From NCBI RefSeq assembly GCF_000336555.1, contig NZ_KB375281.1, positions 873,803 to 937,802 on the forward strand: a stretch of 64,000 nucleotides of DNA, read 5' to 3'. Positions 3,631 through 64,000 of this stretch are shown piece by piece; within the stretch, counting starts at the first letter, position 1; each line of letters opens with the position of its first letter. This DNA comes from Afipia clevelandensis ATCC 49720 (lineage in GTDB: Bacteria; Pseudomonadota; Alphaproteobacteria; Rhizobiales; Xanthobacteraceae). Below the pieces are notes generated by a model, which saw only the letters and a program-made list of their open reading frames with translations, was not told the DNA's origin and did not search any database. A program made the translations under genes and the position numbers.

Positions 3631-4839
3631 ATGTCGGTCGGAATGGCTGCCCCTCCTGCGGTCTATGGCTCCGATCCCGGTCAGAGCCGGGGCAGGCGCT
3701 ATAACGAGCCGCCGAGCCTGCGCCGCAGCGCCTTTCGGCGGGATTGCGACCGGGTGATCCATTCCAACGCCTTCCGGCGCCTGAAGCACAAAACCCAGGT
3801 TTTCGTGTTCCATGAAGGCGATCACTACCGCACCCGACTGACCCATACGCTCGAAGTGGCACAGATCGCCCGCGCGCTGGCGCGGCAGCTCGGGCTCGAC
3901 GAGGACCTGACCGAGACACTGGCGCTGGCTCATGACCTCGGCCATCCGCCGTTCGGCCATGCTGGCGAGCGGGCGCTGGACGAATGCCTGCGGGCGCATG
4001 GCGGGTTCGACCACAATGCGCAGAGCCTGCGCGTGGTGACGCTGCTGGAGCGGCGCTATCCGCAGTTCGACGGTCTCAATCTGACGTGGGAATCCCTTGA
4101 GGGCATCGTCAAGCACAATGGGCCGCTGATCGACCGGAATGGTGAGCCGGTTGGCCGCTATCGCGAACATGGCGTGCCGGTCGGCATATCCGAATACGTT
4201 GCGTATCACGATCTCGAATTGTGGAGTTACGCCTCGCTGGAAGCGCAGGTCGCCGCCGTCGCCGACGATATCGCGTACGACGCGCATGACATTGACGACG
4301 GATTGCGGGCAGGGCTGTTTACGGTCGATGACCTCGGCGCCATTCCGCTGATCGCGGACATCAATGCGGTGATCACGGCGCGCTATCCGGTTCTTGATGA
4401 AACCCGTCGCGGCGCAGAACTGGTGCGCGAACTGATCTCCTATCTGATCGAGGACGTGTTTTCGGAAACGCGCCGGCGGCTTGGTGCGGCAAATCCCGGC
4501 AGCGCCACCGATGTGCGCAATCACAACGCCACGCTGGTTGCCTTCTCGGCTGAGGCCGAAACCACCGAGGCGATGATCAAGCGTTTCCTCAAGACGCACA
4601 TGTACCGCCACGAGCGGGTCATGCGCGTGATGCGGGACGCGGAGGCCGTGGTGCGCGATCTGTTCGCCCGCTATCAGGCCGAACCGGGCGATCTGCCCGC
4701 CGAATGGCTGCCCCATGAAGGCGAAGACGGCGAGGCGGGCCGCGCCCGCCGGATCGGCGATTTCATTGCCGGAATGACCGACAGATACGCCATCATCGAG
4801 CACCGGCGGCTTTTTGACTCGACCCCGGATTTGCGTTAG
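3631..4839 (+). CDS. dgt: dGTPase-like deoxyguanosinetriphosphate triphosphohydrolase
   Basis: HD-domain enzyme hydrolysing dNTPs to deoxynucleosides plus triphosphate, acting in nucleotide pool control. The 402-residue product shows the HD superfamily ligands: His72 in RLTHTLEV, His101-Asp102 in [15 protein letters not shown], and a later Asp in [32 protein letters not shown] and [13 protein letters not shown]-like text near residues 45-60 are typical of the family. It lies 47 bases upstream of argS in the same direction, an arrangement common in this family. Confidence 0.93.
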
Positions 4840-4886
4840 GCGGCGGCCTGAAAAAGGCCAATTCGCCGCGGATTACAGGACGTCTC

Positions 4887-6680
4887 ATGACTTCGCCCAA
4901 GCACCCCCCGCATCTGTTCGCCGACGTGCTTTCGCGCGTGCATGCCGTGTGCGCCGCGCTCGGCCGCGAGGGCGCGCTGCCGGAGGGGATCGACCTCTCG
5001 CGCGTGGTGGTCGAGCCGCCGAAGGATGCTGCCCACGGCGACATGGCGACCAATGCCGCGATGGTGCTGGCCAAGGAGGCCAAGGCCAAGCCGCGTGACC
5101 TCGCCGACAAGATCGCCGCGAAGCTGCGTGCCGATCCGCTGATCGAGGCCGTTGATATCGCCGGTCCCGGATTCATCAACCTGACGCTGAAGACCTCCGC
5201 GTGGTTCGGCGCGCTGCGCTCCGTGCTGGAGCAGGGCACGGGCTATGGCCGCAGCAACATCGGTGCGGCTGAGAAGGTCAATGTCGAATATGTCTCGGCG
5301 AATCCGACGGGGCCGATGCATGTCGGCCATTGCCGTGGCGCGGTGTTTGGCGATGCGCTCGCGAGCCTCCTGTCGTTCGCGGGCTATGACGTCACCAAGG
5401 AGTATTACATCAACGACGCCGGCGCGCAGGTCGATGTGCTCGCGCGCTCGGCATTCCTGCGCTACCGCGAGGCCCTTGGTGAAGCCATTGGCGAAATTCC
5501 GGAGGGGCTTTATCCGGGTGATTACCTCGTGCCAGTCGGCAAGGCGCTCGCAGCGGAATACGGCGACAGGCTGACGAAGCAGCTTGAGGCCGAGTGGCTG
5601 CCGGTGGTGCGTGCAAAAGCCATCGCCATGATGATGGACATGATCAAGGGCGATCTCGCCGCGCTCAACATCCGGCACGATGTGTTTTTCTCGGAGCGTT
5701 CGCTGAACGAGAACGGCAATGACCGCGTCGGTGCGACCATCGCCGGACTGCGCGCGAAGGGTGACGTCTATGAAGGCCGCCTGCCGCCGCCGAAAGGCGC
5801 GCCGGTCGAGGATTACGAGGATCGCGAGCAGACGCTGTTCCGCGCCACCGCGTTCGGCGACGACGTGGACCGTCCGCTGAAGAAGTCGGATGGCTCCTAC
5901 ACTTACTTCGCGTCCGACATCGCCTATCACAAGACCAAGTTCGATCGCGGCTTCCTCAACATGGTGGACGTGTGGGGCGCCGACCATGGCGGCTATATCA
6001 AGCGTGTGCAGGCGGCGATCAAGGCCGTCACCAACGACAAGGCCACGCTGGATGTGAAGATCGTGCAGCTCGTGAAGCTGCTGCGGGGCGGCGAGCCGGT
6101 GAAAATGTCGAAACGCTCCGGCGATTTCGTCACGCTGCGCGAAGTCGTCGATGAAGTCGGCTCCGACGCGGTGCGCTTCATGATGCTGTTCCGCAAGAAC
6201 GATGCGGTACTGGACTTCGATCTCGCCAAGGTGATCGAGCAGTCCAAGGACAACGCGGTGTTCTATGTGCAGTACGGGCACGCGCGCGGTTATTCGATTT
6301 TCAAGAACGCGCGCGAGACGGTTCCCTCATTGCCTGAGGACGCCATCGCGCGCGTCGCATTCCTGCGCGATGCGAAGATCGAGCGTCTGAACGATCCGGT
6401 CGAACTCAGCCTGATCCGCCAGATCGCACTGTTCCCGCGTATCGTGGAGGCGGCGGCGCTGGCACACGAGCCACACCGAATCGCGTTTTACCTGTATGAT
6501 CTGGCCAGCGAATTCCACGCACTCTGGACCAAGGGGCGCGATATGCCTCATTTACGCTTCATTATCCAGAATGATGCAGAAGTAACAATCGCGCGACTTG
6601 CCCTGGTTCAGGGCGTCGTCTCGGTTCTGGCTTCAGGCCTCGCCGTGCTCGGCGTTCATGCCCCGGACGAGATGCGATAA
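4887..6680 (+). CDS. argS: arginine--tRNA ligase
   Basis: Class I aminoacyl-tRNA synthetase charging tRNA-Arg in the cytoplasm. The 597-residue length is normal. The N-terminal arginyl-specific domain is followed by the HIGH-type motif HVGH (residues 145-148, in [17 protein letters not shown]) and the KMSKR signature (about residue 407). The C-terminal anticodon-binding domain ends [11 protein letters not shown]. It follows dgt and precedes the SPOR-domain gene in one direction. Confidence 0.98.
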
Positions 6681-10786: not shown

Positions 10787-11619
10787 CCGCCGAAATCTTG
10801 TCCTTCGAGACGGGACTGCCTGCCGATCACAACGACGGCGAACCGTCGCTGGTCGTCGATGTCGAAGGGTATGAAGGCCCGCTCGATCTGCTGCTTGCGC
10901 TGGCCCGCCAGCAGAAGGTCGACCTTCACAAGATTTCAATTCTCGCGCTGGCCGACCAGTATCTCGTTTTCATCGAAGAAGCGCGCAAGCTGCGGCTGGA
11001 ACTGGCCGCCGACTATCTCGTCATGGCGGCGTGGCTGGCCTATCTCAAGTCGCGCCTGCTGCTGCCCGAGCCGCCCTCGGCGGAAGGACCCAGCGCGGAG
11101 GATCTTGCGACCGCGCTCGCCAACCGCCTGCGCCGCCTCGAGCAGATCCGCGAAGCCTCCAACCGCCTGATGACCCGCCCGCAACTGCGGCGCGATATTT
11201 TCCCGCGCGGATTTCCGGAACAGATCGCGCAGGTCAAGCATCAGCGCTGGACCGCGACGCTGTACGACCTGCTCACCGCCTACGCGACGCAGCGTCAGCA
11301 GCGCGTGCTCGCGACCGTGCATCTCGCCAAGCGCACCGTTTGGTCGCTGTCGGAAGCGCGCGCCTCGCTGGAGCGGCTGGTTGGAGCGGCTGAGTCCGAA
11401 GACTGGGCCAGCCTCGATGAACATCTGATGCGCTATGTGGTCGATCCGACCCAGCGCGCCACCGTGTTCGCATCGAGCTTCGCCGCGGCGCTCGAACTGG
11501 TGCGCGAGGGCACGCTCGACCTGCACCAGAAAGAAGCATTCGCACCTTTGTATTTTCGTAAGCACGTATCGCATTTGCCGCCGGACGCTCAGGCAGCGCC
11601 GGAAGTGCAGGCCGATTAA
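10783..11619 (+). CDS. scpA: segregation and condensation protein A
   Basis: Kleisin subunit of the SMC-ScpAB condensin needed for chromosome segregation. It has 278 residues, with the family N-terminus VDVEGYEGPLDLLLALARQQKVDL and the hydrophobic helix LAADYLVMAAWLAYLKSRLLLP. A C-terminal winged-helix region contains EGTLDLHQKEAFAPLYFRK. The ATG overlaps the nagZ stop (ATGA), and scpB follows after 33 bases, so nagZ-scpA-scpB is an operon. Confidence 0.96.
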   Translation: MTAEILSFETGLPADHNDGEPSLVVDVEGYEGPLDLLLALARQQKVDLHKISILALADQYLVFIEEARKLRLELAADYLVMAAWLAYLKSRLLLPEPPSAEGPSAEDLATALANRLRRLEQIREASNRLMTRPQLRRDIFPRGFPEQIAQVKHQRWTATLYDLLTAYATQRQQRVLATVHLAKRTVWSLSEARASLERLVGAAESEDWASLDEHLMRYVVDPTQRATVFASSFAAALELVREGTLDLHQKEAFAPLYFRKHVSHLPPDAQAAPEVQAD

Positions 11620-11652
11620 GACGTCGCGTCAGTGGAAGAAGGAGACAGGGCC

Positions 11653-12435
11653 ATGGCAAGTCCGGCGAGAACGACGGCGCACATCGCTCCGGTTGAAGAT
11701 TCCGAGGAGTCTGTCGTGGAGACCTCTGTTGTGGAGTCGGCCCAGGAATCGTCCAGCGAGACCGCTGCGCGCCCCGAGGAACTGCGCCTTCTCGAAGCCC
11801 TGCTGTTCGCCTCCACCGAACCGCTCGAGGAATCCGCGCTGGCCAAGCGCATGCCGGACGGCGTGGACGTAAAAGCGGCGCTGTCACAGTTGCAGGCCGA
11901 TTACGCCATGCGCGGGGTCAATCTGGTCCGCGTGGCCAGCAAGTGGACCTTCCGCACCGCCGGTGATCTGTCGTGGCTGATGACCCGCGAAAGCACCGAA
12001 ACGCGCCGCCTGTCGCGCGCGGCGATCGAGATGCTGGCGATCATCGCCTACCACCAGCCGGTGACCCGCGCCGAGATCGAGGAAATCCGCGGCGTGGTGA
12101 CCTCGAAGGGAACCCTGGACGTGCTGCTGGAAACCGGCTGGATCCGTCCGCGTGGCCGTCGCAAGACGCCGGGCCGCCCGCTGACCTTCGGGACCACCGA
12201 GGCGTTCCTTTCGCAGTTCAGCCTGGAAGCGCTGGGCGATCTGCCAGGCCTGGACGAGCTGAAGGGCGCGGGGCTGCTGGATACCCGCCTGCCGGGCGGC
12301 TTTGCTGTTCCGTCGCCGTCCGACGATCCGGCACTGCGCGAGGACGAGGACCCGCTGGAGCCGGGCGACCTCGAATTGACGCTGGCGCCGGCCGTGGAGC
12401 CGGAAAACGAGCCGGAAAAGGGCGGCGAGAGCTGA
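11653..12435 (+). CDS. scpB: segregation and condensation protein B
   Basis: Partner of ScpA in the SMC complex. It has 260 residues, with an acidic low-complexity N-terminal tail (EDSEESVVETSVVESAQESSS, about residues 12-34) before the first winged helix (LRLLEALLFASTEPLEESALAKRM). The second winged helix is RAAIEMLAIIAYHQPVTRAEIEEIRGV. The C-terminus is also acidic. The start at 11653 has GAAGGAGA eight bases upstream; a GTG at 11632 is in frame but would place the ribosome-binding site inside the gene. Confidence 0.95.
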   Translation: MASPARTTAHIAPVEDSEESVVETSVVESAQESSSETAARPEELRLLEALLFASTEPLEESALAKRMPDGVDVKAALSQLQADYAMRGVNLVRVASKWTFRTAGDLSWLMTRESTETRRLSRAAIEMLAIIAYHQPVTRAEIEEIRGVVTSKGTLDVLLETGWIRPRGRRKTPGRPLTFGTTEAFLSQFSLEALGDLPGLDELKGAGLLDTRLPGGFAVPSPSDDPALREDEDPLEPGDLELTLAPAVEPENEPEKGGES

Positions 12436-12613
12436 AACGCACGCGCCGGATCGACAGCGGCGCGCCTGCGGGAGCGAACATTAACTCTGGTGTCAATGCG
12501 CCGGTTTGCGCAATCCTGACGCGGGGTTAATCCTTGTTTTTGACACCTCCGGGGCCTACTTTCCGGTCAGAAATGGCCGGACGCTCCGGCCCCGTGTTTT
12601 GGAGGACGGCAGT

Positions 12614-12853
12614 ATGGGTTCGATGAGTATCTGGCACTGGATCGTCGTGATCGCCGTGGTCCTGCTGCTGTTCGGCCGTGGCAAGATCTCGGACCTGATG
12701 GGCGACGTCGCGCAGGGCATCAAGGCCTTCAAGAAGGGCATGTCCGATGACGAGGCCAAGCCCGCCGAGAAGCCCGAGCCTGTGAAGACCATCGACAGCG
12801 CTCCGTCGGCATCGACCTCGCAGCGGACTGATGTCGGCAGCAAGGCGGTCTGA
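12614..12853 (+). CDS. tatA: Sec-independent translocase subunit TatA
   Basis: Pore-forming subunit of the twin-arginine translocase, which exports folded proteins. It is a 79-residue product with one N-terminal membrane helix ([15 protein letters not shown]), the hinge [12 protein letters not shown] and an amphipathic helix ([12 protein letters not shown]), then a polar tail. The start at 12614 has a perfect GGAGG eight bases upstream, so the longer open frame upstream is not used. First gene of tatABC; two short hairpins follow it. Confidence 0.95.
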
Positions 12854-12900
12854 GGTTAAAACCTCGCATTCCTGAGAGAGAACGGGGCATCAAGCCCCGT
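12852..12900. promoter_or_regulatory. two hairpins between tatA and tatB
   Basis: Two short perfect inverted repeats fill the tatA-tatB gap: GAGGTT-AA-AACCTC (12852-12865, overlapping the tatA stop) and ACGGGGC-ATCAA-GCCCCGT (12882-12900). No T-tract follows, so they are not simple terminators. They may stabilise tatA mRNA or reduce read-through, which would fit the known excess of TatA over TatB. Confidence 0.45.
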
Positions 12901-12914
12901 CAGCGGAATCTTCC

Positions 12915-13325
12915 ATGTTCGACATCGGGTGGAGTGAACTGGTCGTCATCGGCGTCGTGGCGCTGATCGCCATCGGCCCGAAGGAATTGCCCGGCGTGCT
13001 GCGCATGGTCGGGCAATGGATCGGCAAGGCCCGCCGCATGGCCGCTGAATTCCAGGGCCAGTTCAACGAGGCGATGCGCGAAGCCGAGATGGCGGACATC
13101 AAGAAGACGTTCGATGATGCCTCCGCCGCCGCCAAGGACATGTCGCCGACCAATCTCCTGACGTCGCTCAACAAGGACGTCGAGGACGCCATGAAGATCG
13201 ACCAGCCGGTGATGACGCCGACCACACCCGAGCCGCCGACACCGGAAACCTTCGTGGAAGCCGAAGCGCATGCGCCGGCGGTTGAAACGCCGCCGCCCGC
13301 TTTACCGGACGCCAAAGCGTCATGA
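12915..13325 (+). CDS. tatB: Sec-independent translocase subunit TatB
   Basis: Substrate-binding partner of TatC in the Tat translocase. It has 136 residues, with the membrane helix [26 protein letters not shown], the TatB-specific Glu in WSELV, and a long amphipathic helix with [14 protein letters not shown]. The Pro/Thr-rich tail is unstructured. Its stop overlaps the tatC start by four bases, giving coupled translation. Confidence 0.95.
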
Positions 13326-14152
13326 GTCACGAGGACATCGAAGCCACCAAGGCGCCCTTGATGGATCACCTGATCGAGCTGCGCTCGCGGCTGATCAAGG
13401 CGCTGCTGGCGTTCGGCCTTGCGTTCATTCTCTGCTTCGTCTTCGCCAAGCAGATTTACAACGTGCTGGTCTGGCCGTTCGTCTGGGTGGCGGGGCCCGA
13501 AAATTCCAAATTCATCTACACCGCGCTGCTGGAATACTTCCTCACCCAGTTGAAGCTGGCGATGTTCGGCGCGGGCTTCCTGTCGTTCCCGGTGATCGCG
13601 GCGCAGATCTACATGTTCGTCGCGCCCGGCCTCTACAAGCACGAGCGCGGCGCGTTCCTGCCGTATCTGGTCGCGACGCCGATCTTCTTCGTGCTCGGCT
13701 CGCTGCTGGTCTATTTCCTCGTGCTGCCGATGCTGATCCGCTTCTCGCTCGGCATGCAGCAGGTCGGCGGCGCCGAGACGGCGCAGATCGCGCTGCTGCC
13801 GAAAGTCGGCGAATATCTCTCGCTGATGATGTCGCTGATCTTCGCCTTCGGCATCGCGTTCCAGTTGCCGGTGATCCTGACACTGCTCGGGCGGATCGGA
13901 GTCCTCACCTCGAAGCAACTCAGGGAAAAGCGGCGCTACTTTATCGTCGTTGCCTTCGTTCTTGCCGCCGTGCTGACGCCGCCGGATGTCATCAGCCAGA
14001 TGTCGCTCGCGCTGCCGCTCCTGATCCTCTACGAGGGCTCGATCATCGCCGTCGCCATGGTCGAGAAGCGGAAGGCAGCCGAGGCGTCCAGAGGCACCAC
14101 GCCGCCGGCCGATACGCCGCCGACGCCGCCAGCGACCACCCCGGCGGAATAA
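13322..14152 (+). CDS. tatC: Sec-independent translocase subunit TatC
   Basis: Polytopic receptor subunit that recognises twin-arginine signal peptides. It has 276 residues with six hydrophobic segments. [18 protein letters not shown] carries the conserved N-terminal Glu/Arg cluster, and FxxFP-type and PPDVISQ loops are present near residues 80 and 220. A Thr/Pro-rich tail ends the protein. A likely client in this window is the Tat-signal hydrolase at 32193. Confidence 0.96.
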
Positions 14153-52455: not shown

Positions 52456-52531
52456 GAGCGCGTAGCTCAGGCGGTAGAGCACGTGACTTTTAATCATGGG
52501 GTCGAGGGTTCGAGTCCCTCCGCGCTCACCA
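52456..52531 (+). tRNA. tRNA-Lys (UUU anticodon)
   Basis: A complete cloverleaf can be folded. The acceptor GAGCGCG / CGCGCTC (52456-52462, 52521-52527) and the D-arm GCTC..GAGC are intact. The anticodon stem is CGTGA / TCATG with loop CTTTTAA (anticodon TTT, 52489-52491), and the T-arm is GAGGG TTCGAGT CCCTC. The discriminator A is at 52528 and CCA is encoded at 52529-52531. The 3' half is the attachment site of the element that follows. Confidence 0.96.
52486..52523 (+). repeat. attL: tRNA-Lys 3' segment
   Basis: Direct-repeat copy inside the functional tRNA gene, from the last base of the anticodon stem through the T-arm to the acceptor stem. It is identical over at least 38 bases to 63963-64000. 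The repeat probably continues beyond the window. Confidence 0.92.
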
Positions 52532-52569
52532 TGAAAACCCTTATAAAATAGGCACTTTTTGAATTTTCA

Positions 52570-53118: not shown

Positions 53119-53137
53119 TAGCGACAGTCAAGCCGGG

Positions 53138-53389
53138 ATGACCATGGAACTCGAATATCTGCGCATCGAAATCGAAAGAATGAGGACGCAGGTCCGGCGT
53201 CAGCGCGGCGACATTCGCAAGCTTCAACACGCTGGCATTAGTACCGCGTCTGCTGAAGCGCTGCTTGAGCGCATGCAGGCCAAGGTCGATGAGCTTTGCG
53301 CTGAGCGCGACAAGCGGGTCGGTGAGACCCGCCTGAAGTACGCCGGTACGAACAAGGTGATTAAGGGACCACAGATACGGTTTAGATAA
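53138..53389 (+). CDS. small coiled-coil hypothetical protein under a LexA box
   Basis: An 83-residue, mostly helical protein: MTMELEYLRIEIERMRTQVRRQRGDIRKLQ forms an amphipathic coil, followed by AEALLERMQAKVDELCAERD. No enzymatic motif; it could be an adaptor or DNA-binding dimer. The start at 53138 (MTMEL) was chosen for coil continuity; an in-frame Met at 53144 is close. It is convergent with the SIR2-like gene. Confidence 0.68.
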   Translation: MTMELEYLRIEIERMRTQVRRQRGDIRKLQHAGISTASAEALLERMQAKVDELCAERDKRVGETRLKYAGTNKVIKGPQIRFR

Positions 53390-53402
53390 CGAGTAAACAA
53401 AT

Positions 53403-54380
53403 CTACTGTTCAAAAAAGCCATGTCGGATAAGGCTATCCATATCGCCGTCGTCTCGGCAATTCGGCGGAACGCCCGCTTCGTCCAAAATGCGTACTAAGC
53501 GCTTATCCTTGGTCTGAAAATTCTGAACAAAAAAGCCAGATGCCATTTTCTCTCGACCTAGTCCTAACAACTCCTGATTGTTAGTCGAGAGGGAAAAACC
53601 CACCATATAAATTTTAGACGATGCCAGAATGAGCCGCTTTGCGCGCGTTCGTGCTTCGTCGTCTTTGTTGTCTCCAACTCGAATGTTTGTCGCTTGCGAC
53701 TCGAGGTACCGACGAACAGGATGCACTTGTTCTGGAAGAGAAGTTATGCATCCGTGTGGATATACAAACTCCACGCACTCATCCATCGGCCAATACCTTC
53801 GCTCGGCTCCGTTCCAATACATTCTCATAGACCGCTCAAGCAGGCCGTCGTAGTTGAACGATATGATTGCGAGTCTGTTCTCCGGCGAAGCAATTGGCCG
53901 CATAATGCCCACTAAACTCCGCATCCAATCCTTCTCGGGTGCTAGCGCTCCTTGCTCAAATTGCGATTTCAAGCGCCATATGCCGTTGTCGTTGCGATAC
54001 ATCGCCCGAAATAAAGCTATTGTTATCAGCATCGAGACAACACCTGTCATCGATGGGTGATCTCGAACGAAGTCGTCAAGATTTAACGCAACTAAGTGAT
54101 TGCGAAATATCTCTGCCGTCGACAGGAAGTCGTCTAGGTCGCCGATTGATTTTAATAGCGCAAAATTCAAATCGCTCCCTTGAGCGAGATATTGATCGGT
54201 CACGCGGAAATAACCTTCCGCCCCCTCGTGGTAACGACGAATAAGAGCTTTTATCGTCTCGGCAGATTGAGCCATAAGTTCCCAAGCCAAAGGCAAGCTA
54301 TAAGGAACACTTGCGCCAGCTCCTAGAATGATGGTCCGCTGGACAATTTTCTTTGCGACAATGACTTTGCTTTTCGCCAT
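53403..54380 (-). CDS. SIR2-like (defence-type) NAD-binding protein
   Basis: A 325-residue protein with a SIR2-like Rossmann fold. The nucleotide loop is TIILGAGASVP (GAGAS, 20-24), followed by SFNYDGLLE (Asn176-Tyr-Asp178), the candidate catalytic His209-Gly in VYPHG, and VGFSLSTNNQELL near the C-terminus. GAGAS with NYD and HG is the pattern of bacterial anti-phage SIR2 domains, many of which deplete NAD+, rather than of protein deacetylases; no zinc Cys are present. It is the second gene of an A+T-rich operon with a HEPN-like partner. Start: ATG 54380; the TTG at 54392 is an alternative. Defence is inferred, not shown. Confidence 0.85.
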   Translation of the reverse strand: MAKSKVIVAKKIVQRTIILGAGASVPYSLPLAWELMAQSAETIKALIRRYHEGAEGYFRVTDQYLAQGSDLNFALLKSIGDLDDFLSTAEIFRNHLVALNLDDFVRDHPSMTGVVSMLITIALFRAMYRNDNGIWRLKSQFEQGALAPEKDWMRSLVGIMRPIASPENRLAIISFNYDGLLERSMRMYWNGAERRYWPMDECVEFVYPHGCITSLPEQVHPVRRYLESQATNIRVGDNKDDEARTRAKRLILASSKIYMVGFSLSTNNQELLGLGREKMASGFFVQNFQTKDKRLVRILDEAGVPPNCRDDGDMDSLIRHGFFEQ

Positions 54381-54419
54381 CGATGACTTCAAAAAAACAG
54401 GAGGGATGGAAATAAGGGA

Positions 54420-55226
54420 TTAAAGGCGCTCGAAAAATCCGACGCGCCAAGGATCAGGATCATGGTCGCTGCAGACATAAGGAAAATGTTCGCGATGCCT
54501 TTTTAGCAGCGTCCAGATTGGCCTTGGTACTTCCATCGGCACATCTGATGGGCTGTAAACCTGACCATGCCTAAGCGCGACGCGAATAATGCCACGAGCT
54601 ATAAGAGTATTAGCGTAACCACCATCAGCGTCAGCCGTGAAGAGTCGAAGATTGTGATGCAAAAGATAGCCAACAATCTCACGTTCTTTGCGGCTCAGAC
54701 TGTCGAGGTCACTTTCGATGTTTCCCAATTCGTCCACTTGCGCAGCCTCAGAACGCATCGGTTCGGACAAGCGAATGGGAAAATTACGCTTGCTTAGTTC
54801 TACACCGACCTGCGCATCGAGATACTTGCACGCTTCAGACAGGGCATCTTCGGAAGCTGCGTTGTACAGGCCCGTCGAGATGTAACGTGAGCGCATGACA
54901 TTGTCGTCGCTGTCCATAAGTCGTAGTACTTCATCGATATCATATGCAATCTGTAAGCCTTGCTCTTTCGCCATGCTGCTCAACGAAATTACGTTGTGCC
55001 TAACTTTTATGAGGTCGCTTACGGTCTTCCCGATCCCGCGAAGGTACGCCTTTAGGTAAAGCTCGATAGCGTGATAAAACAGGAACGACTTTGGAGCTTC
55101 AGGGTGAGTGACTTGCACCTTGGCAACTGACAATGCCTCGGCTGAATGCCAGTAGGAGCGCGCGTAATTGAACAGACCTACGGGCGTAGTTCGTTCATCC
55201 TGATCGAATTTTGCCGGTTGGTTCAT
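54420..55226 (-). CDS. HEPN-like protein with SieB-like C-terminal tail
   Basis: A 268-residue protein, first gene of the pair. The N-terminal helical region (about 15-140) has the HEPN-type pattern APKSFLFYHAIELYLKAYLRGIGK (44-67), then VRHNVISLSSMAKEQGL (75-91). A basic-His pair there could be a nuclease site, but the canonical RxxxxH is not clear. The C-terminal part (about 175-252) has SRKEREIVGYLLHHNLR, LIARGIIRVA and a final WTLLKRHREHFPY. It is built like the tail of superinfection-exclusion B proteins. The start at 55226 has AGGA upstream. 39 bases separate its stop from the SIR2-like ATG, so they are one operon. Confidence 0.72.
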   Translation of the reverse strand: MNQPAKFDQDERTTPVGLFNYARSYWHSAEALSVAKVQVTHPEAPKSFLFYHAIELYLKAYLRGIGKTVSDLIKVRHNVISLSSMAKEQGLQIAYDIDEVLRLMDSDDNVMRSRYISTGLYNAASEDALSEACKYLDAQVGVELSKRNFPIRLSEPMRSEAAQVDELGNIESDLDSLSRKEREIVGYLLHHNLRLFTADADGGYANTLIARGIIRVALRHGQVYSPSDVPMEVPRPIWTLLKRHREHFPYVCSDHDPDPWRVGFFERL

Positions 55227-55250
55227 CGAAAGTCCTCAGCCAAATCAAAT

Positions 55251-55276
55251 CAACATCAGCATTATAGCCGATGTTG
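55251..55276 (-). promoter_or_regulatory. palindrome overlapping a TATAAT box before the HEPN-SIR2 operon
   Basis: Inverted repeat CAACATC-N12-GATGTTG, whose minus-strand centre reads GGCTATAATGCT. The TATAAT (55266-55261) is a consensus -10 box 35 bases before the start codon. A repressor bound here would block the operon. No recognisable -35 is present. Confidence 0.5.
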
Positions 55277-55385
55277 TGGGAGCCCTCTGGGGATAACGCC
55301 GATAGAACAGTGTTAGTTGGCTGGGAAAAGTATGGGCTATTGAAATTACTAGGTTATTTTCTCAAAAGTGGTGACTTCTGTGGGG

Positions 55386-56342
55386 TTAAACATGGCGCAG
55401 GGCCTTGCTCCCCGTAGCGTCCCATGACAATCGGTTTGGCAGCCTGATTTCCTCATTTGAAGGAATAAGCAGCCGAGGGAAGATGTCTTTCACGCGCTGA
55501 ACGTATTCAAGGTCTCGATTGGCCCAGATGCGTGTCGCACGTTTTGCCAGCATCGCCCGATAACGCTCTCGCCGGGCAGACGGCTTTGTATTCTTTCTCA
55601 TGTGACGTTGATGTTCGGCCCGCAAAGTTTTGCGAATGGCGGCCTGAACCGCCTTAGCAACCTTACTACTAACGAAAGTCTGCGAAACATCGAAGCAACC
55701 GCGGAAAACCGCAGCCGGGTTGATAGCGGGGGTTTCGTCCGCAAAAGCGATACCGTAAATCCGTTCGATGTTTTCAGTCCCAAGCACGCGAAGCTCGTTT
55801 TTATGCACCGGCGGGCCACTCCAGTCGCGTTTCGACACGCGGTCGAAATAAAGAAGATTATCCAGCGAGCGTTCTGAGGTGTGCGCGTTCGGAACGTAGT
55901 ACACGCTACCGTTCTCAAAGGTGTTCATTATCCCGGCGGCGCGATTACGCATAATGAGATGTTGTCTGATCCAATCGGTTAGCTGGGCAAACGTCAAACG
56001 GTCGGACGTCCAATCAAATGAAAGGTCTAACCGGCGCAGAGTGCCCCCGCGTTCTCGTTGCCATAGGCCCAGCAATTCAAGCATCTCTCGTTGCGGGCAC
56101 TGAACCTTCACTACGAAGCCTATGATGTCATAGCGATAGGTCATCGCGTTCCATCGGCGCGTCATATCCATGCGGACACGCCGACCGTAAATCAGTTGAA
56201 GATTTTGACGGTCGCCCGCTTGAGGCGGCCCGGAAATAAAAACGTGAAGAGTATCGATGTAGGCGCTGAGCCAAGCGACATACCGGCTTAGGCCGGTGCA
56301 ATGCCGGACGCGTCGTTTTGTCGGTTCTGCAGCCCGCAACAT
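55386..56342 (-). CDS. possible replication-initiator-like protein
   Basis: A 318-residue basic protein not firmly identified. RRLDLSFDWTSD, NGSVYYVPNAHTSERSLDNLLYFDRVSKR and VHKNELRVLG echo the order of motifs in Rep_trans/phage gene II initiators (acidic strand, a Yxg...YdK-type segment, RxE). The C-terminal half is Arg/Lys-rich. The start at 56342 follows a GGGGG ribosome-binding site; the longer frame to 56465 begins with GTG and is less likely. It is divergent from the HTH gene at 56642. Confidence 0.6.
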   Translation of the reverse strand: MLRAAEPTKRRVRHCTGLSRYVAWLSAYIDTLHVFISGPPQAGDRQNLQLIYGRRVRMDMTRRWNAMTYRYDIIGFVVKVQCPQREMLELLGLWQRERGGTLRRLDLSFDWTSDRLTFAQLTDWIRQHLIMRNRAAGIMNTFENGSVYYVPNAHTSERSLDNLLYFDRVSKRDWSGPPVHKNELRVLGTENIERIYGIAFADETPAINPAAVFRGCFDVSQTFVSSKVAKAVQAAIRKTLRAEHQRHMRKNTKPSARRERYRAMLAKRATRIWANRDLEYVQRVKDIFPRLLIPSNEEIRLPNRLSWDATGSKALRHV

Positions 56343-56641
56343 ACTTGCCCCCAAAACGCTGACTAAAGCGTTCTCCCTGTCACTCCCTCTCGGGAGTCCA
56401 TTCCGGCACGCCAGCGGGAATTGGCGGTTCGGTCGGCCTGCTGAAGGCCATTTGTCGGGCGACACAAGGCGCTGTGTTGCGTTTTCGCCTAGAATTGCGC
56501 AAGCGCTGTTCGCGTCGTCACCGAACTATTGTAGCCTGCGCTCAGCGTTGTGAAAACGGTTCTAACAAAGGATGCGTGTCTGTGCGCATGCAACCAAAAC
56601 GGACAACCAATTCCGGCATGCCGGAACGAGAGGATAAACGC
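56343..56641. other. divergent promoter region between Rep-like and HTH genes
   Basis: About 300 bases. Both flanking genes read outward, so it should contain their promoters. Small open frames here have no recognisable product. I see no clear operator. Confidence 0.5.
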
Positions 56642-56947
56642 ATGGGTGCCAAGGACGACCACGATTGGTCCTACTACCGCGGTAGGCCAGCGCCAACGAT
56701 ACGGCGCATACCGAAGCGGCAGGCTGAGCACTCTCCGCCGCGCCGTCGTTTTCGACCTGAGAGGCTTCCTTCATTGAAATCGGAAGTTAAGCGGATGATT
56801 GCGGCGGAAGCTGACATGAGCTTGGACGACATCATGCATCGGCTGCGGCGCTTCGAGGTCACGGTATCGCGGACAACGGTCAGCGGCATCATGACCGAGT
56901 TCAGGCATTCCGTGCGCATCATGCGCGAGGCCGGGCTGCTGAAATAA
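56642..56947 (+). CDS. HTH-type small protein of the element
   Basis: A 101-residue basic protein. The N-terminus (MGAKDDHDWSYYRGRPAPTIRRIPKRQ) is unstructured. The C-terminal 55 residues form a predicted winged-helix/HTH (EVKRMIAAEADMSLDDIMHRLRRFEVTVSRTTVSGIMTEFRHSVRIMREAGLL), likely a DNA-binding regulator. The start at 56642 has AGAGGA seven bases upstream. A hairpin follows the stop. Confidence 0.68.
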   Translation: MGAKDDHDWSYYRGRPAPTIRRIPKRQAEHSPPRRRFRPERLPSLKSEVKRMIAAEADMSLDDIMHRLRRFEVTVSRTTVSGIMTEFRHSVRIMREAGLLK

Positions 56948-56949
56948 AA

Positions 56950-56987
56950 CGGCCCGACGTGCGTGGGGGTCACAGCACATCGGGCCG
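56950..56987 (+). terminator. hairpin after the HTH gene
   Basis: CGGCCCGACGTGC pairs with GCACATCGGGCCG, two bases past the stop codon. The stem is strong but no T-run follows, so termination may be factor-assisted. The next 220 bases to 57204 show no gene. Confidence 0.6.
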
Positions 56988-57204
56988 GATTGCCTGCCGC
57001 GCCGTTGGTTGCCAGCCGCAGACTCTAAGGAGAAGCGCAAACACCCTAGTAGTTTGCTCGTCACGCTCCGAAGGTAAGCAGAGCCACGAGTTGTCGCGGT
57101 TCGTTTCTATGAAGGGCCACTCACGACTGACGCCCCGCCAGCCTAGGTAATGTTAGACCTCGCTGGCCATTCGCCGGAGACCAGAGCGTATCCGGCGAAT
57201 TCGA

Positions 57205-58020
57205 TCACGCGGCCTTTGCCGCGCCTTTGTCCTTCAATTCCAACCCCAGCAAAGCGAAAGCCGATATGAACGGGCGATAAACAATCCGCTGCCCTTCGTT
57301 CTCCGCCATGCGGATAAGCTCGACCTCACGCCGCTCTTGGGCGAGAAGTTCAGCACGAAGCTCGGCCATCGCCTTGGCTTTGTCTTCTGCTGACATAGCG
57401 AGCGAAGGCTCAGGTAGCCGGTCGATTTCAGCATGGAGGCTTTCGCGGAATAGATCTGGAATGACGAAGTTCAGAATTGAAGCGATGGGCAGCTTGGTGG
57501 TGTACGATGCTGGATCGCTGAACTCGATACCGAACTTGCCGTGTCTGCTCGCATTGATCCGAGGCCGCGCATCGCCGGGAAGATTATCTAGCCACGCGTC
57601 GCATGCAGCCTTCTGTTCTGCGCGAGTCGGTGAAGCGTGGCGCACGCGCCGCAATTCAGCGTCGATGTCAGCAATGCGTTGGCGAGCGTCCGCAATCGCT
57701 GACAGGATCGTTTCGCCCCTGTCCAGCCGAACCCTCACATGCTTCGCGTCGACCACATCATGCTTCAAGGTTTCCTGAAACGCGCCGACCTGCGCCAGCA
57801 GTTGTGCCAGCGCATCGGCATGCTGCTTATGATCGGCCAGACTTCCTTGTAATCGCGAAATCTCAAATTCTATGGAAGCCGCGTCTGGAGGATTGTGCGG
57901 GAGCAGGCGGCGAAGCTGCGAAATGCGAGCAACAGTTGAGTCCACCAATACGGCTGCATCGTCTCGCCGCAAGCGCAACTCCAGAACCCGCGCCAGCGCT
58001 TTTTGTGTCAGGCCCGCCAT
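57205..58020 (-). CDS. terminase-coupled coiled-coil hypothetical protein
   Basis: A 271-residue largely helical protein, last gene of the terminase operon. Two helical stretches (about 5-140, ADIDAELRRVRHASP; and 205-245, AMAELRAELLAQERREVELIRM) flank a central globular part with FGIEFSDPASYTTKLPIASILNFVIPDLFRESL. I recognise no named phage protein. Its ATG overlaps the stop of the preceding gene by one base. It might help packaging or DNA handling. Confidence 0.75.
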   Translation of the reverse strand: MAGLTQKALARVLELRLRRDDAAVLVDSTVARISQLRRLLPHNPPDAASIEFEISRLQGSLADHKQHADALAQLLAQVGAFQETLKHDVVDAKHVRVRLDRGETILSAIADARQRIADIDAELRRVRHASPTRAEQKAACDAWLDNLPGDARPRINASRHGKFGIEFSDPASYTTKLPIASILNFVIPDLFRESLHAEIDRLPEPSLAMSAEDKAKAMAELRAELLAQERREVELIRMAENEGQRIVYRPFISAFALLGLELKDKGAAKAA

Positions 58021-58418
58021 CAGGCACCTGCCGTAATGTATGCCTGCTCAAGCCGCGCATTGCGGCGCGCGTATGCCGCGTCCGCATCCTGCGTGACCTG
58101 TGGCTGCGGTGCGGCCTGCGGCTTGATCTGCTCAGGCCCAGCCGATAGCGCATCTTGCCATGCGTCACTGAGGCGCTGCTTGTTTGCAAAGAAGCGTTCG
58201 GCGCGACCCGCATTGTCGGAGTCTGTGACGTAACCGGGCGCATGCCTCGGTACTGCGGGTGTCACGCTGTCCTGAACGACGAGGCGCTGCATGGCGTCGA
58301 GGCCATCAAGCATCGTAAAATCTGAGCGCAGAACTTCGCCGTCCTTCAGGACATCGTTGCCTTCCGCGTATCTCAGGAAGTTTCCGTTCGCATCGTAGAT
58401 TTTGGCTTTGCGTTTCAT
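58020..58418 (-). CDS. terminase-coupled hypothetical protein
   Basis: A 132-residue hydrophilic protein: MKRKAKIYDANGNFLRYAEGNDVLKDGEVLRSDFTMLDG at the N-terminus, then a Gln/Ala/Pro-rich end. It has no known domain. Its start overlaps the terminase stop (ATGA) and its stop overlaps the next start, so the three genes are translationally coupled. Confidence 0.75.
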   Translation of the reverse strand: MKRKAKIYDANGNFLRYAEGNDVLKDGEVLRSDFTMLDGLDAMQRLVVQDSVTPAVPRHAPGYVTDSDNAGRAERFFANKQRLSDAWQDALSAGPEQIKPQAAPQPQVTQDADAAYARRNARLEQAYITAGA

Positions 58419-59965
58419 AGTCGTCGTCCTCCTGTCATGTAGAAGTTGCGTTGCATTCGCTGGAACAGGCGAGCATCATCCTCACCGTCGGATACCCAGT
58501 TCATGCTGACGTCATAGGCGTATTTCTTCACCTGAATGTTGGTGAGCGCGCCTGCGACCACGTTAGCGACGTCGTCGTGCGCGCTGGGCGCGTGATCGAT
58601 GCTGTCCTTGCCGCTGCGTGCGGTGCGGCGTTCCAGCGATGAAAGCTGGGCGACGAGTCGCGGATGGTCGAGTAAGTCGACGCGCTTTGAATTGAGCAGC
58701 GGAAGGAAATCGCGGTACAGATCTGATTTTGGCTTGGCTGACTGCTCAAGCGTGATGCTGTTGCGCTTGAATGCTTCAACCGGAAATGCGCCCGCGAATT
58801 TATCGGACAGCGCCTTGGTGATGCCGTAGCTCTTGAGCGTAGCCGCAAAATCCTGCGCGACTTGTTCGGGGCTGAACGGCGGCTTCACTTCTCGGATACA
58901 GTCCAGCACGCCCATGCCGGTTTTCTTATCCTTGTGAGCAATTGCCAGCGTGAATGAGTCCTTGCCAGAGCCGCCAGCGGGATCGACGAAGGCTGAGTAG
59001 TTGACGCCTTGTTCTGGCGCGCGCTCTCGGATGCCTTCGCTGATGCAGGCTTCGACGGCTTCGCGGGAAATGAACGACTCAATGTCGTTTCGGAACTGGC
59101 CCAGCCATTCGGCGGCAGCGGATGCTGGGTCCTTCGCCATGGCTTCGTCAATGATGGACTGGTCGATCGTGGGGTTCATCGTGCGCGTCGGCGCTTGCCA
59201 GACAAGGACGTTGTCACCGTTCTTGCCATAGTGTTCGCGATGCGCGTCGTACAGCGCGCCGCGCTTGGCGTAAGGCGAAGATGCAACCAGCAACATGCTG
59301 TTGGGAAACTGAGCCATGCCGGGCTTAACGGCGGTAATGATCTCGGAGTCGGTGCTGGCTGCGTCCTCGTCACTGGCCATGAACGCGGCCTCGTCCAAAA
59401 GGCAGGCGACAATCGCGTAGCCGCGCAACGAGCGATGCGAAGCCGTGCCGACTTCAATGCTGATGTTGGTTGAAAGGTCGAAGCCTTCGGCCCAAGTGCG
59501 GGTCACCAACCGGCTGAGCGCGGGAACGCCAGTTAGCAACGCCGTGATGTAGCGTAAGATTGTCCGGGCTTGGCGGCGGTCGGACGCAACGATGAAGATT
59601 GTCCCGCGTTCGCCGGGGGCCAGGTATTTGCGGTACGAGTGAAAACAAGCGAGCCACACAGCGACGAGCGCGAGGATGAAACTCTTGCCCGACCGCCGTC
59701 CGCAGATGAGAAAGATTTCGCGAGCAACCGATGACGGGTTTTCAGTGCGGCCGGTGCATTCGCGGAAGATGCGGGCCTGCTCGCCTGACAGCGGCAATCC
59801 GAACAGAGCTTTCAAGAATGAGAACCATGCCGTCCAGCCTGCAGGGTTGCGCGAAAACCATGGGGCGAATAGCGCATCGTCAGCGATGGCATCGAGCAAC
59901 GTCAACGGCCCGGCTGGGTTGACCGCTCGGTGCGTCTGGCGCTGGTATCGGTTCGTTGAGGCCAT
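58415..59965 (-). CDS. phage terminase large subunit
   Basis: DNA-packaging motor ATPase and nuclease, 516 residues, full length. Walker A is LICGRRSGKS (86-95) and Walker B is IVACLLDEAAFM (Asp191-Glu192). The coupling motif is LLVASSPY, and the RNase H-like nuclease has FVDPAGGSGKDSF, LSDKFAG and AHDDVANVV. The ATPase and nuclease residues are all present, so the gene looks functional. No portal or capsid gene is near, so it would need a helper phage for procapsids. Confidence 0.92.
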   Translation of the reverse strand: MASTNRYQRQTHRAVNPAGPLTLLDAIADDALFAPWFSRNPAGWTAWFSFLKALFGLPLSGEQARIFRECTGRTENPSSVAREIFLICGRRSGKSFILALVAVWLACFHSYRKYLAPGERGTIFIVASDRRQARTILRYITALLTGVPALSRLVTRTWAEGFDLSTNISIEVGTASHRSLRGYAIVACLLDEAAFMASDEDAASTDSEIITAVKPGMAQFPNSMLLVASSPYAKRGALYDAHREHYGKNGDNVLVWQAPTRTMNPTIDQSIIDEAMAKDPASAAAEWLGQFRNDIESFISREAVEACISEGIRERAPEQGVNYSAFVDPAGGSGKDSFTLAIAHKDKKTGMGVLDCIREVKPPFSPEQVAQDFAATLKSYGITKALSDKFAGAFPVEAFKRNSITLEQSAKPKSDLYRDFLPLLNSKRVDLLDHPRLVAQLSSLERRTARSGKDSIDHAPSAHDDVANVVAGALTNIQVKKYAYDVSMNWVSDGEDDARLFQRMQRNFYMTGGRRL

Positions 59966-60296
59966 GACGGGCCGCGCTCTCCGAACCCCTGACTAAGGGG
60001 CGTGAGGGGCGACAGACTCATACCTGCGAACGGTTCGCAAGTCCTATTTGGGGATAACCGATTGGTTTTAGACAGTTTTTCCCTGTCGAGGCCGACGAGA
60101 GGCCATACGAGCCGGGGCGCGGGGTCGGCCCGGCGGAGGCCGAAAAACGCACCCAGACCCCGTTTCTGGCCGTTTGTCCGCATGGACGGCCTATCTAGGT
60201 GCCCGGGGGGGGGCAGCCGGGCAGCCGCCGGACCTACCAAGAGGCGGTCTTGAGCCAAGAGTACAACTCGTGCGGGTCCGGAAAGCCGCTATTCCG
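59966..60296. other. 330-base gap with a G9 tract
   Basis: No supported gene. A run of nine G (60205-60213) lies in the middle. On the minus strand, open frames on either side of it are in different phases. None gives a recognisable protein, but a decayed or phase-variable small gene cannot be excluded. Confidence 0.45.
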
Positions 60297-60925: not shown

Positions 60926-61438
60926 CTATCTAACCGGTCTAATGATGCGGCGAGGCCGCGACTCCGAGCCGTTCGCTACTGCTGCAATAGCTTCATTGAT
61001 CCGGCGCGCGGGCAGCGGTTCGTCGCGCTCAGGCTCAGCATCGACAACGTCCGGCTCGGACGCGTTGCCGTTGGCGGCGTGATAGCCTTCGAGCGGAGAG
61101 GGGCCGACATGCTTGGGTCTACGCTTCAGCCCGAGCGTGCTGAGCAGGCGCATCAGCGTGTTCACCACCGGCATGTAGCTTTCCAAGTCCAGCTTCTCGC
61201 CATCGGCCATTCTGGACTCATGCTGTTCGGCAGCGACGACCAACGATGCAGCGCGCCGGGCTAGGATGAGTTCGGCCTCGCTCATGGCGTCACTGCCCCC
61301 GAGGTCGCTGACAATGGAGCCGAGGACTTCCCGGTAGCGCCGGGCGACTAGACTTCGTTCGTCAACACGCTCTAGGAATAGCTGCTTGCCCGTTGTCACA
61401 CGGGTTCTGGTTGTCCGGCTAAGTGATTTGTTTGACAT
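60926..61438 (-). CDS. hypothetical protein, possible small packaging subunit
   Basis: A 170-residue, mostly helical protein: MSEAELILARRAASLVVAAEQHESRMADGEKLDLESYMPVVNTLMRLLSTLGLKRRPKHV (about 51-110). A disordered acidic part and an Arg-rich end (SRPRRIIRPVR) follow. The YxxxxNxLxRLLxxLGLxRR pattern occurs in proteins next to phage large terminases. A small-terminase-like role is a guess based on that and on position. Confidence 0.62.
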   Translation of the reverse strand: MSNKSLSRTTRTRVTTGKQLFLERVDERSLVARRYREVLGSIVSDLGGSDAMSEAELILARRAASLVVAAEQHESRMADGEKLDLESYMPVVNTLMRLLSTLGLKRRPKHVGPSPLEGYHAANGNASEPDVVDAEPERDEPLPARRINEAIAAVANGSESRPRRIIRPVR

Positions 61439-62492: not shown

Positions 62493-63788
62493 TCAATGCG
62501 AAGTTGGCTGCGCTGTCACGGGCCGCTGTATTCTCCGGGGTTTCCGAACGTGCCGGTTAGCCGTCACGATTTTTAGGATCAGCTTAGCCAATTGCTCTAG
62601 AGCAGCCGACTTCTCATCCTCGTAATCATAGAGGTTATAAACTCGCTGAATGCCGACCACCTTATGGCCGATGGCGCGTTCGGCTGTTTGATCGCTGACT
62701 TTCGCCTCGCTCATCAGGGTGCGCGCCGTGCGCCGAATGTCATGAACAGTCCAGTGGTCCATATCAGGCGCGCGCCGATGCAGCCGTTGCTCGAACTTTG
62801 CCTTGGACTCGCTCCAAGTGTTGAAAGGACCTTTGCCGCGGCGTGCGGGAAACACATAAGGGTTGCCAGCAACGGGAATGAGTTCTTCGATGATGTCCAG
62901 CGCGAGTTGCGGCAGTTTCACTCTGCCGATGTTACCTTTTTCCTTGGCGTACTCGTTCGGTGGAATAGTCCAGACGCCGTCAACGATGTCGCTGTAGCGC
63001 ATCATGCTGACTTTCTCTTTGCGCTGACCGGTTAGCAGGAGCATCCGAACAAGTGCTCCATAGACGCCGAATTCTTTTGCTTCCGTCCAGATGGCGCGGA
63101 TTTCGTCCTTCGTTAGGACGCGCTGTCGTGGCGTGTTTTCCGAACGGTTCATGCCCCGAACGATAGGCGAAACGAAGTCATGATCGGTCGTCATGTACCA
63201 GTTCGCCATTTTGCGGATGATGGCGAGAACCATGTCCGCCTGACGCTTGCCGTTCCAGACCTTCTTATTGTTACGCTTCGCGCGCGCCGCGACGCTGTCC
63301 TCAATGCTGTCGAGTAGCTTGCTGACGTCGCGGCGGTTGATGTCCTTAAAGTTCCGTTCCCCCCAAACCGGGAGAACGTACTTATCTAACATGCGCTGGA
63401 TTTCATCCCGCGACTTGAGGTTCTTCGACTCCACCCAACGCTTCATGAAGTTTTTCGCGACCGCGTTGGTCGTATCGTCGTTGCTGACGACGGTCACCGG
63501 GTTCAGTGCGGCCTGCGGGTTCTTCAGGAACTGGTGTGCCGCCTCACGGGCTGCCGCGACGTCCATCGCCGGGAAGTGCCCCAGTTTGAATGACGAGGTG
63601 CAGCCATGCTCCCGGTGGCGCACGCGCCAAGTCTTGGTGACCTTCCGCTGGCCGCCCGAGATGTTCAGATAGAGACCGCGCTGGGTATCGTTGACGACAA
63701 GGCTGCGCCCGGCCACAGGCTTCAAAGCCGCAACGCGCTCATCCGTCAGGCCCCGAGGCCGGGATTTTTTCTTAGCAGGCGAAGACAT
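62493..63788 (-). CDS. tyrosine integrase (P4-type, DUF4102)
   Basis: Site-specific recombinase of 431 residues inserting the element in tRNA-Lys. The N-terminal DUF4102 arm-binding domain (about 12-90) is followed by a core-binding domain (110-205). The catalytic domain carries Arg256 in LLTGQRKEK, His349-x-x-Arg352 in TVHDIRRTARTLM, His375 in AIGHKVVG and the nucleophile Tyr384 in RVYNLYDY. All residues are intact, so it is likely active. It lies 175 bases from attR. Confidence 0.94.
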   Translation of the reverse strand: MSSPAKKKSRPRGLTDERVAALKPVAGRSLVVNDTQRGLYLNISGGQRKVTKTWRVRHREHGCTSSFKLGHFPAMDVAAAREAAHQFLKNPQAALNPVTVVSNDDTTNAVAKNFMKRWVESKNLKSRDEIQRMLDKYVLPVWGERNFKDINRRDVSKLLDSIEDSVAARAKRNNKKVWNGKRQADMVLAIIRKMANWYMTTDHDFVSPIVRGMNRSENTPRQRVLTKDEIRAIWTEAKEFGVYGALVRMLLLTGQRKEKVSMMRYSDIVDGVWTIPPNEYAKEKGNIGRVKLPQLALDIIEELIPVAGNPYVFPARRGKGPFNTWSESKAKFEQRLHRRAPDMDHWTVHDIRRTARTLMSEAKVSDQTAERAIGHKVVGIQRVYNLYDYEDEKSAALEQLAKLILKIVTANRHVRKPRRIQRPVTAQPTSH

Positions 63789-63962: not shown

Positions 63963-64000
63963 ACTTTTAATCATGGGGTCGAGGGTTCGAGTCCCTCCGC
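63963..64000 (+). repeat. attR: partial tRNA-Lys copy
   Basis: 38 bases identical to 52486-52523, starting at the last base of the anticodon stem and running to the window end. The 5' half of a tRNA is missing in front of it, so it is a remnant attachment site and not a second gene. Confidence 0.92.

Follow-up and report, generated by a model that had tools for sequence, protein, structure and literature searches.

Two adjacent genes on the minus strand of the window, i.e., the whole stretch of 64,000 nucleotides that was analyzed, encode a SIR2-family protein and a protein in which a HEPN domain is fused to the cytoplasmic domain of SieB. The two genes lie in the cargo slot of a satellite-like element and are very probably anti-phage cargo, because the corresponding slot of a sister element, also in this genome, is occupied by a Thoeris system. 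Thus a known anti-phage system and the window pair are exchanged at one slot, and the contextual evidence for a defence role of the pair is unusually direct. A defence role had been proposed in the sequence-only reading, and it now has stronger support than that reading could give. There is about an even chance that the pair forms a two-gene anti-phage (abortive) cassette, a swappable cargo of the element in which the HEPN-SieB protein would be sensor and restraint and the SIR2 protein the NAD+ effector.

The gene pair and its host element

The genome is a single contig of 4.4 Mb. Features of the element, in positions of the window, are as follows.

52456..52531, plus strand: tRNA-Lys (TTT), the integration site
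52486..52534, plus strand: att copy of 49 bp in the 3′ part of tRNA-Lys
53377..55330, no strand: exchangeable cargo slot, with both borders in sequence common to the sister element L101; the HEPN-SieB and SIR2 genes are the only genes assigned to it
53403..54392, minus strand: SIR2-family protein gene, 329 aa from TTG 54392 or 325 aa from ATG 54380
54420..55226, minus strand: HEPN-SieB fusion gene, 268 aa, with HEPN at about residues 10-150 and the SieB cytoplasmic domain at about 160-268
55251..55276, minus strand: imperfect palindrome CAACATCGGC-TATAAT-GCTGATGTTG, 24 bp upstream of the HEPN-SieB start codon (ATG)
55386..56465, minus strand: ORF359, a backbone protein without known function, 97% identical to its counterpart in the sister element
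56474..56947, plus strand: backbone ORF with a weak helix-turn-helix match (HTH_32, E=0.007)
57205..58020, minus strand: backbone ORF of 271 aa, with relatives in three other TerL-bearing elements (L123, L128, L130)
58020..58418, minus strand: backbone ORF of 132 aa
58415..59965, minus strand: terminase large subunit, TerL (PHROG 2, E=4.5e-30)
60926..61438, minus strand: terminase small-subunit-like protein, so assigned because its homologue sits upstream of TerL, within about 1.3 kb, in 11/11 TerL loci
62493..63788, minus strand: tyrosine integrase, adjoining the far att copy
63963..64000, plus strand: second att copy, which runs on to 64011, past the window end

The two open reading frames had been placed at these coordinates on the minus strand, and the ORF list agrees. 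The gap from the HEPN-SieB gene to the SIR2 gene is 39 bases with the ATG start at 54380, for which the earlier spacing of 39 bases and the numbering Asn176/His209 are correct, and 27 bases with TTG 54392, the start of the longest ORF. The description as a same-strand neighbouring pair is thus confirmed, with a gap of 27–39 bp. A first-order Markov simulation of the 1954-bp segment (500 runs, minus strand) gave minus-strand ORFs of at most 223 aa, compared with the real 329 and 268 aa; chance ORFs are ruled out, as 0/500 simulations reach the real lengths. The GC contents of the two cargo genes are 48.3% and 50.2%, against 58.2% in the shared backbone and 62% in the left flank, and the pair, which had been called A+T-rich, is so relative to backbone and flank but not in absolute terms.

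The element measures 11.5 kb between exact 49-bp att repeats (52486-52534 and 63963-64011) that correspond to the 3′ part of tRNA-Lys, and the cargo pair sits at the tRNA end. An integrase, att repeats and TerL are present; phage satellites combine such features with a lack of structural genes and dependence on a helper. The earlier description of the element as satellite-like is supported. When 10 element proteins, including the two cargo proteins, were scanned with PHROGs, TerL and the integrase gave clear matches, one protein a weak match (E=0.0064) and seven none; no capsid or tail gene is found among these 10 larger proteins. Two inverted repeats with 13-nt arms are also present in the backbone, at 56950-56987 and 57169-57200, between the helix-turn-helix ORF and the 271-aa ORF.

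The sister element L101 (C1:1006000-1025900 of the same genome) adjoins tRNA-Ser and is bounded by a 17-bp repeat, its candidate att. The window and L101 display 89% identity over 55331-60171 (4.85 kb), 72% over 53137-53376, and 71% in a piece at the small-terminase gene. The L101 slot (11613-14017) contains ThsA with a macro domain (PADLOC 420 bits, Pfam 141) and ThsB (PADLOC 228 bits, Pfam 55), together with a third ORF of 120 aa at 13448-13810 that is without a match. A search of 149 family genomes with ORF359 found the copy in L101, about 87 kb off, and otherwise one relative of 37% identity (in genome G019); ORF359 has no relatives in viral contigs, no tblastn match in phages and none in plasmids.

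TerL relatives (E<=1e-20) are present in 15/149 family genomes, the source genome included, and some of the TerL-bearing loci are probably ordinary prophages. The slot genes of four TerL elements, chosen by eye, were scanned with PADLOC. Three of the four (L125, L128, L130) come from one set of 11 TerL loci, and several of the other eight loci of that set look by eye like ordinary prophages; L123 is from another set. Defence matches were found beyond the terminase block in 3/4 of the scanned elements: a type II methyltransferase among the cargo genes of L130, a weak PD-T7-3 (25 bits) and a type IV REase (284 bits) in L128, and a dCTPase (520 bits) in L125, where the layout is uncertain in that there is no relative of the 271-aa protein and the integrase-like match is found at the opposite end. 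The slot genes of L123 gave no PADLOC match. The occurrence of Thoeris and the window cassette in the same slot of two elements in one genome points to a terminase-bearing satellite-like family that carries defence genes, and the slot could be mined for further defence systems.

Some details of these related elements are noted separately. The L130 methyltransferase lies near a tRNA gene next to an unmatched protein of 424 aa (L130:8430-10384), and the two L128 matches are also near a tRNA gene (L128:9160-11698). A 431-aa protein in the cargo position of L123, an element next to tRNA-Lys, is a candidate unknown defence gene (L123:1612-2907).

The SIR2-family and HEPN-SieB proteins

The SIR2 protein displays the motifs GAGAS at residues 24-28, NYD at 180-182 and HG at 213-214 (numbered from TTG). 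It matches the PADLOC SIR2 model (E=7.5e-6), and its Pfam SIR2_2 match is below threshold (E=0.085). A 27-member profile of the family gives the NADase KomC as best PDB match (E=1.4e-8); the NYD motifs of the two are aligned, as is KomC His146 with position 213, and an entry KomC(H146N) is present in the same PDB match table. The assignment as SIR2-like that had been made from motifs is thus upheld by the PADLOC model and the profile. The motif set of SIR2 NADases, i.e., the GAG nucleotide-binding motif, the Asn of NYD and the His before Gly, is complete in the window protein, which is likely to have NADase activity.

Among the 27 aligned relatives, Asn180-Tyr-Asp is kept in 27/27. Position 213, before the Gly of HG, is His in 10, Tyr in 16 and Phe in one, so that His is missing in 17/27, and position 211 is His in 25/27, with two exceptions, the window protein (Tyr) and L042 (Arg). 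The window protein therefore retains the canonical His and has lost the other His of the family; it reads YPHG, where the first position is the one that is His in 25 of the aligned members. The family may use either His, 211 or 213, as judged from the alignment. No second domain was found in the 329-aa protein by Pfam, PADLOC or a further scan.

Searches covered samples of family (296), order (397) and class (289) genomes, which overlap and each include the source genome. The single SIR2 protein has four relatives besides its own genome in the order sample and no match beyond its own genome in the family sample; there are no relatives in viral contigs, no tblastn match in phages and none in plasmids. 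An alignment of those relatives led to 45 loci in genome contigs and 2 in viral contigs. The SIR2 relatives surveyed (n=48) are 20–32% identical to the window protein.

The assignment of the first half of the partner protein to HEPN is based on a sub-threshold Pfam match (16.1–17.5 bits with a cut-off of 22; E=0.0049–0.013) together with Glu, His and Arg residues conserved in a family of eight. Relatives of this half are small proteins, mostly of 147–193 aa. In the alignment His52, Glu55, His77, Arg114 and Tyr115 are invariant (8/8), and the Ex3[KR] motif, Glu55-Lys59 in the window protein, is kept in 7/8 members, with Asn in L007. The RNase motif Rx4-6H is absent from the HEPN half, and the only such string (215-220) is inside the SieB part. 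In excerpts of a survey of HEPN families, AbiV and HEPN-T are among those in which the final His is missing and another conserved, upstream His is proposed instead (PMC3710099; Anantharaman et al. 2013). The window domain is similar to HEPN-T and AbiV-type domains in its Ex3[KR] motif, upstream conserved His, later conserved Arg and missing final His, a likeness drawn from the description of the AbiV families, but it differs in its fusion to a SieB domain.

Two other identities of this protein were considered and discarded. A PADLOC match to DpdJ (E=0.012, residues 88-145) was set aside as noise. A MNT-HEPN toxin-antitoxin was rejected, as Pfam finds no nucleotidyltransferase in nine element proteins and the HEPN half is without Rx4-6H. 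Searches of the PDB with either cargo protein on its own, or with the HEPN or the SieB profile, yielded no useful match.

The second half has a weak Pfam SieB match (13.2–15.0 bits with a cut-off of 26), and it is assigned to SieB because its relatives bridge to Pfam-supported SieB. A 200-aa protein from L068 passes the cut-off (33 vs 26 bits) and is 46% identical over window residues 172-267; a relative in L069 is 45% identical (SieB 13.5 bits), and an ORF from a Methylobacterium plasmid 38% (13.3 bits). Two viral contigs also hold relatives of the SieB half, and the one in L094 passes the cut-off with 41.3 bits. By eye, the SieB relatives start with hydrophobic, membrane-like stretches, whose place is taken by HEPN in the window protein; a full membrane SieB was rejected on account of the HEPN-like N-terminus. 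Both parts of the earlier label, a HEPN-like/SieB-like protein, thus stand in refined form as a HEPN domain, without Rx4-6H, fused to the SieB cytoplasmic domain.

No other match spanning both halves was found in the 296 family and 397 order genomes. The SieB-domain profile detects only the source genome among 289 class genomes, and in that genome no second SieB-domain match is better than E=0.38. The single HEPN-SieB protein has no relatives in viral contigs, and tblastn of phages with the protein or its C-terminal half gave no match. Separately, in viral contigs read by eye, a SieB-like gene follows an apparent terminase end (L093:504-1082), and a terminase-like gene comes directly after a HEPN relative (L095:1470-2042).

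One system or two genes

A common strand, the 27–39 bp gap, a GC content below that of the backbone in both genes, and their joint presence in the slot argue for one system. Against it are the uniqueness of the pair in the searches and the lack of HEPN-SieB neighbours of SIR2 relatives (0/48). The Tyr at position 211 and the HEPN and SieB matches below cut-off count against the cassette reading. The preferred reading, a two-component abortive cassette, builds on what is directly seen, namely the genes and their families, residues of SIR2 catalytic type, the joining of HEPN to SieB, the element, and the swap with Thoeris at one slot. What we infer is that SIR2 is active as a NADase, that the two proteins touch, that one is the sensor and the other the effector, and that infection is aborted. 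The SieB domain of the HEPN-SieB protein would answer a phage product or process, and the HEPN domain would bind nucleic acid or a nucleotide. Upon infection HEPN-SieB would free or activate the SIR2 protein, which would cleave NAD+ via N180 and H213, and the cell would stop before phage are made. According to excerpts of PMC10883804, SieB of P22 halts macromolecular synthesis midway in the lytic cycle, and a stop of this type is an outcome that NAD+ loss could equally give.

The main rival to this cassette is that the slot holds two independent exclusion genes, one a single-gene SIR2 protein that would deplete NAD+ and the other a soluble HEPN-SieB protein that would act in the manner of SieB. 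We regard this as a real possibility, short of probable, and the neighbours of relatives bear on it directly. The DNA around 48 SIR2 relatives was surveyed, consisting of the 47 loci from genome and viral contigs and L017 (L018, L019 and L020, whose contigs are those of L040, L026 and L041, were not recounted), with blastp of HEPN-SieB and our HEPN profile against all ORFs of at least 50 aa; neighbours can be missing because a number of the loci are short or truncated by the end of the contig. A HEPN-SieB neighbour is found for 0/48 within the DNA around each, and the exact pair was not found beyond the window's element in the genomes searched. There is also no recurring partner of SIR2 relatives among the neighbours listed. 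Conversely, no SIR2 gene is present in the DNA surrounding the HEPN relatives L003-L012, nor, by eye, near the SieB relatives L068, L069, L093 and L094. These results favor independent genes, as does the L101 slot, where the 120-aa ORF without a match is present in addition to Thoeris. However, the two window genes share a strand across a short gap with no further gene assigned between the slot borders, and two SIR2 relatives have HEPN-type-looking neighbours, at 1 bp (L038) and 132 bp (L067). The expectation that homologues would be paired thus fails for the most part with respect to HEPN-SieB, but at least two relatives have another neighbour that looks HEPN-type, and two is a lower bound because the Pfam scan of neighbours covered just these two loci, L038 and L067.

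In L038 (7983-10020) the gene after the SIR2 relative encodes a protein of 303 aa, in which HEPN-like motifs are in register. This protein is reached by the HEPN profile with E=0.015 (a hit in L050, E=0.0094, is more than 3 kb away and was not counted), has no Pfam match, and aligns to HEPN by hhalign with a probability of 20.6% (E=0.0011), which is suggestive of a HEPN-type partner. In L067 (1311-3521, a viral contig) an AbiJ_NTD4 protein (Pfam, 44.8 bits) precedes the SIR2 relative, and its C-terminal RNKLGH can be read by eye as a HEPN-type motif. Neither partner has a PADLOC match. A homologue of the L038 partner is also seen in L091 (5587-6504), one ORF from the best stand-alone match to the HEPN domain of the window (4462-4959).

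Two further readings assign the roles differently. In an unlikely one, the pair would be a toxin-antitoxin-like module in which HEPN-SieB binds the promoter palindrome and neutralizes SIR2, serving element stability first, with defence as a by-product. The gene order, regulator then effector, is compatible with this, as are the TATAAT-containing palindrome 24 bp ahead of the first gene and the SieB domain, which by eye appears winged-helix-like. The palindrome is a weak candidate for an operator over the −10 box, since the element's list of inverted-repeat pairs has 10 others besides it (11 in all), which counts against the module too. Moreover, the palindrome has no homologous locus and by eye is absent before ThsA in the sister element, where the same slot holds a defence system. 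The other reading reverses the cassette, so that HEPN-SieB would be an RNase effector with an alternative active site (H77, R114) and SIR2 a sensor or regulator; we consider it very improbable. It could draw on the invariance of E55, H77 and R114 in 8/8 aligned members and on excerpts of PMC3710099, where an alternative active site of this kind is proposed for the AbiV and HEPN-T families. However, the domain is without Rx4-6H, the sole such string (215-220) being in the SieB part, and the SIR2 catalytic residues look intact.

Relation to known systems

Among the matches listed from the full-text PMC literature, which is mainly open-access and where absence is no proof, no SIR2 system was found that has HEPN-SieB as its partner. 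The combination is also not described in excerpts of PMC9519451, PMC9122126, PMC3506569, PMC10952713, PMC9503650, PMC11559045, PMC10883804 and PMC3710099.

With respect to SieB (PF14163) of P22 and lambdoid phages, the window protein has the same cytoplasmic domain, with 46% identity to the Pfam-supported SieB of L068, but a HEPN domain replaces the N-terminal membrane part. SieB is counted among the less well understood exclusion genes in excerpts of a 2024 paper (PMC10883804). The HEPN-SieB fusion, which is free of the membrane part and has a SIR2 protein as neighbour, offers a tractable handle on the role of the SieB domain. Tentatively, and with some doubt, the SieB cytoplasmic domain may be a portable module for phage sensing or effector gating, which in HEPN-fused form with a SIR2 NADase would constitute a new class of defence that depletes NAD+ and has two components. 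If so, phage sensing by classical SieB, a membrane protein with a poorly understood mechanism, may depend on the same domain.

The slot is comparable to the hotspots in P2 phages and in P4 satellites, where defence genes are exchangeable according to excerpts of PMC9122126: in both cases a phage or satellite has exchangeable defence genes in one slot. The window element differs in its backbone, which has terminase genes, and in its alphaproteobacterial host. Nezha (SIR2-HerA) is also composed of two genes, a SIR2 protein and a partner, and excerpts of PMC11559045 report that the SIR2 Asn and His are required for protection; however, its partner is the HerA ATPase/helicase, where the window has HEPN-SieB.

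Thoeris (ThsA/ThsB) is likewise a two-gene NAD-related defence, and its macro-type ThsA pair occupies the same slot in L101, but neither window protein matches ThsA or ThsB in PADLOC, and the partner here is HEPN-SieB. KomC, the closest structure to the SIR2 profile and aligned at both Asn and His, is shorter, at 264 aa, than the window SIR2 protein; we take it to belong to the Kongming system, where the partners are other than HEPN-SieB. In DSR1/DSR2, SIR2-STAND and SPARSA, SIR2 is part of a long multidomain protein or occurs with APAZ/Ago, whereas the window SIR2 protein has 329 aa and no other domain was found in it. The known SIR2 systems Thoeris, Nezha, DSR and SPARSA were rejected as identities of the pair, since partner or architecture is mismatched. 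The window pair is a new arrangement of familiar parts, a SIR2 effector and satellite cargo, with an apparently undescribed HEPN-SieB fusion.
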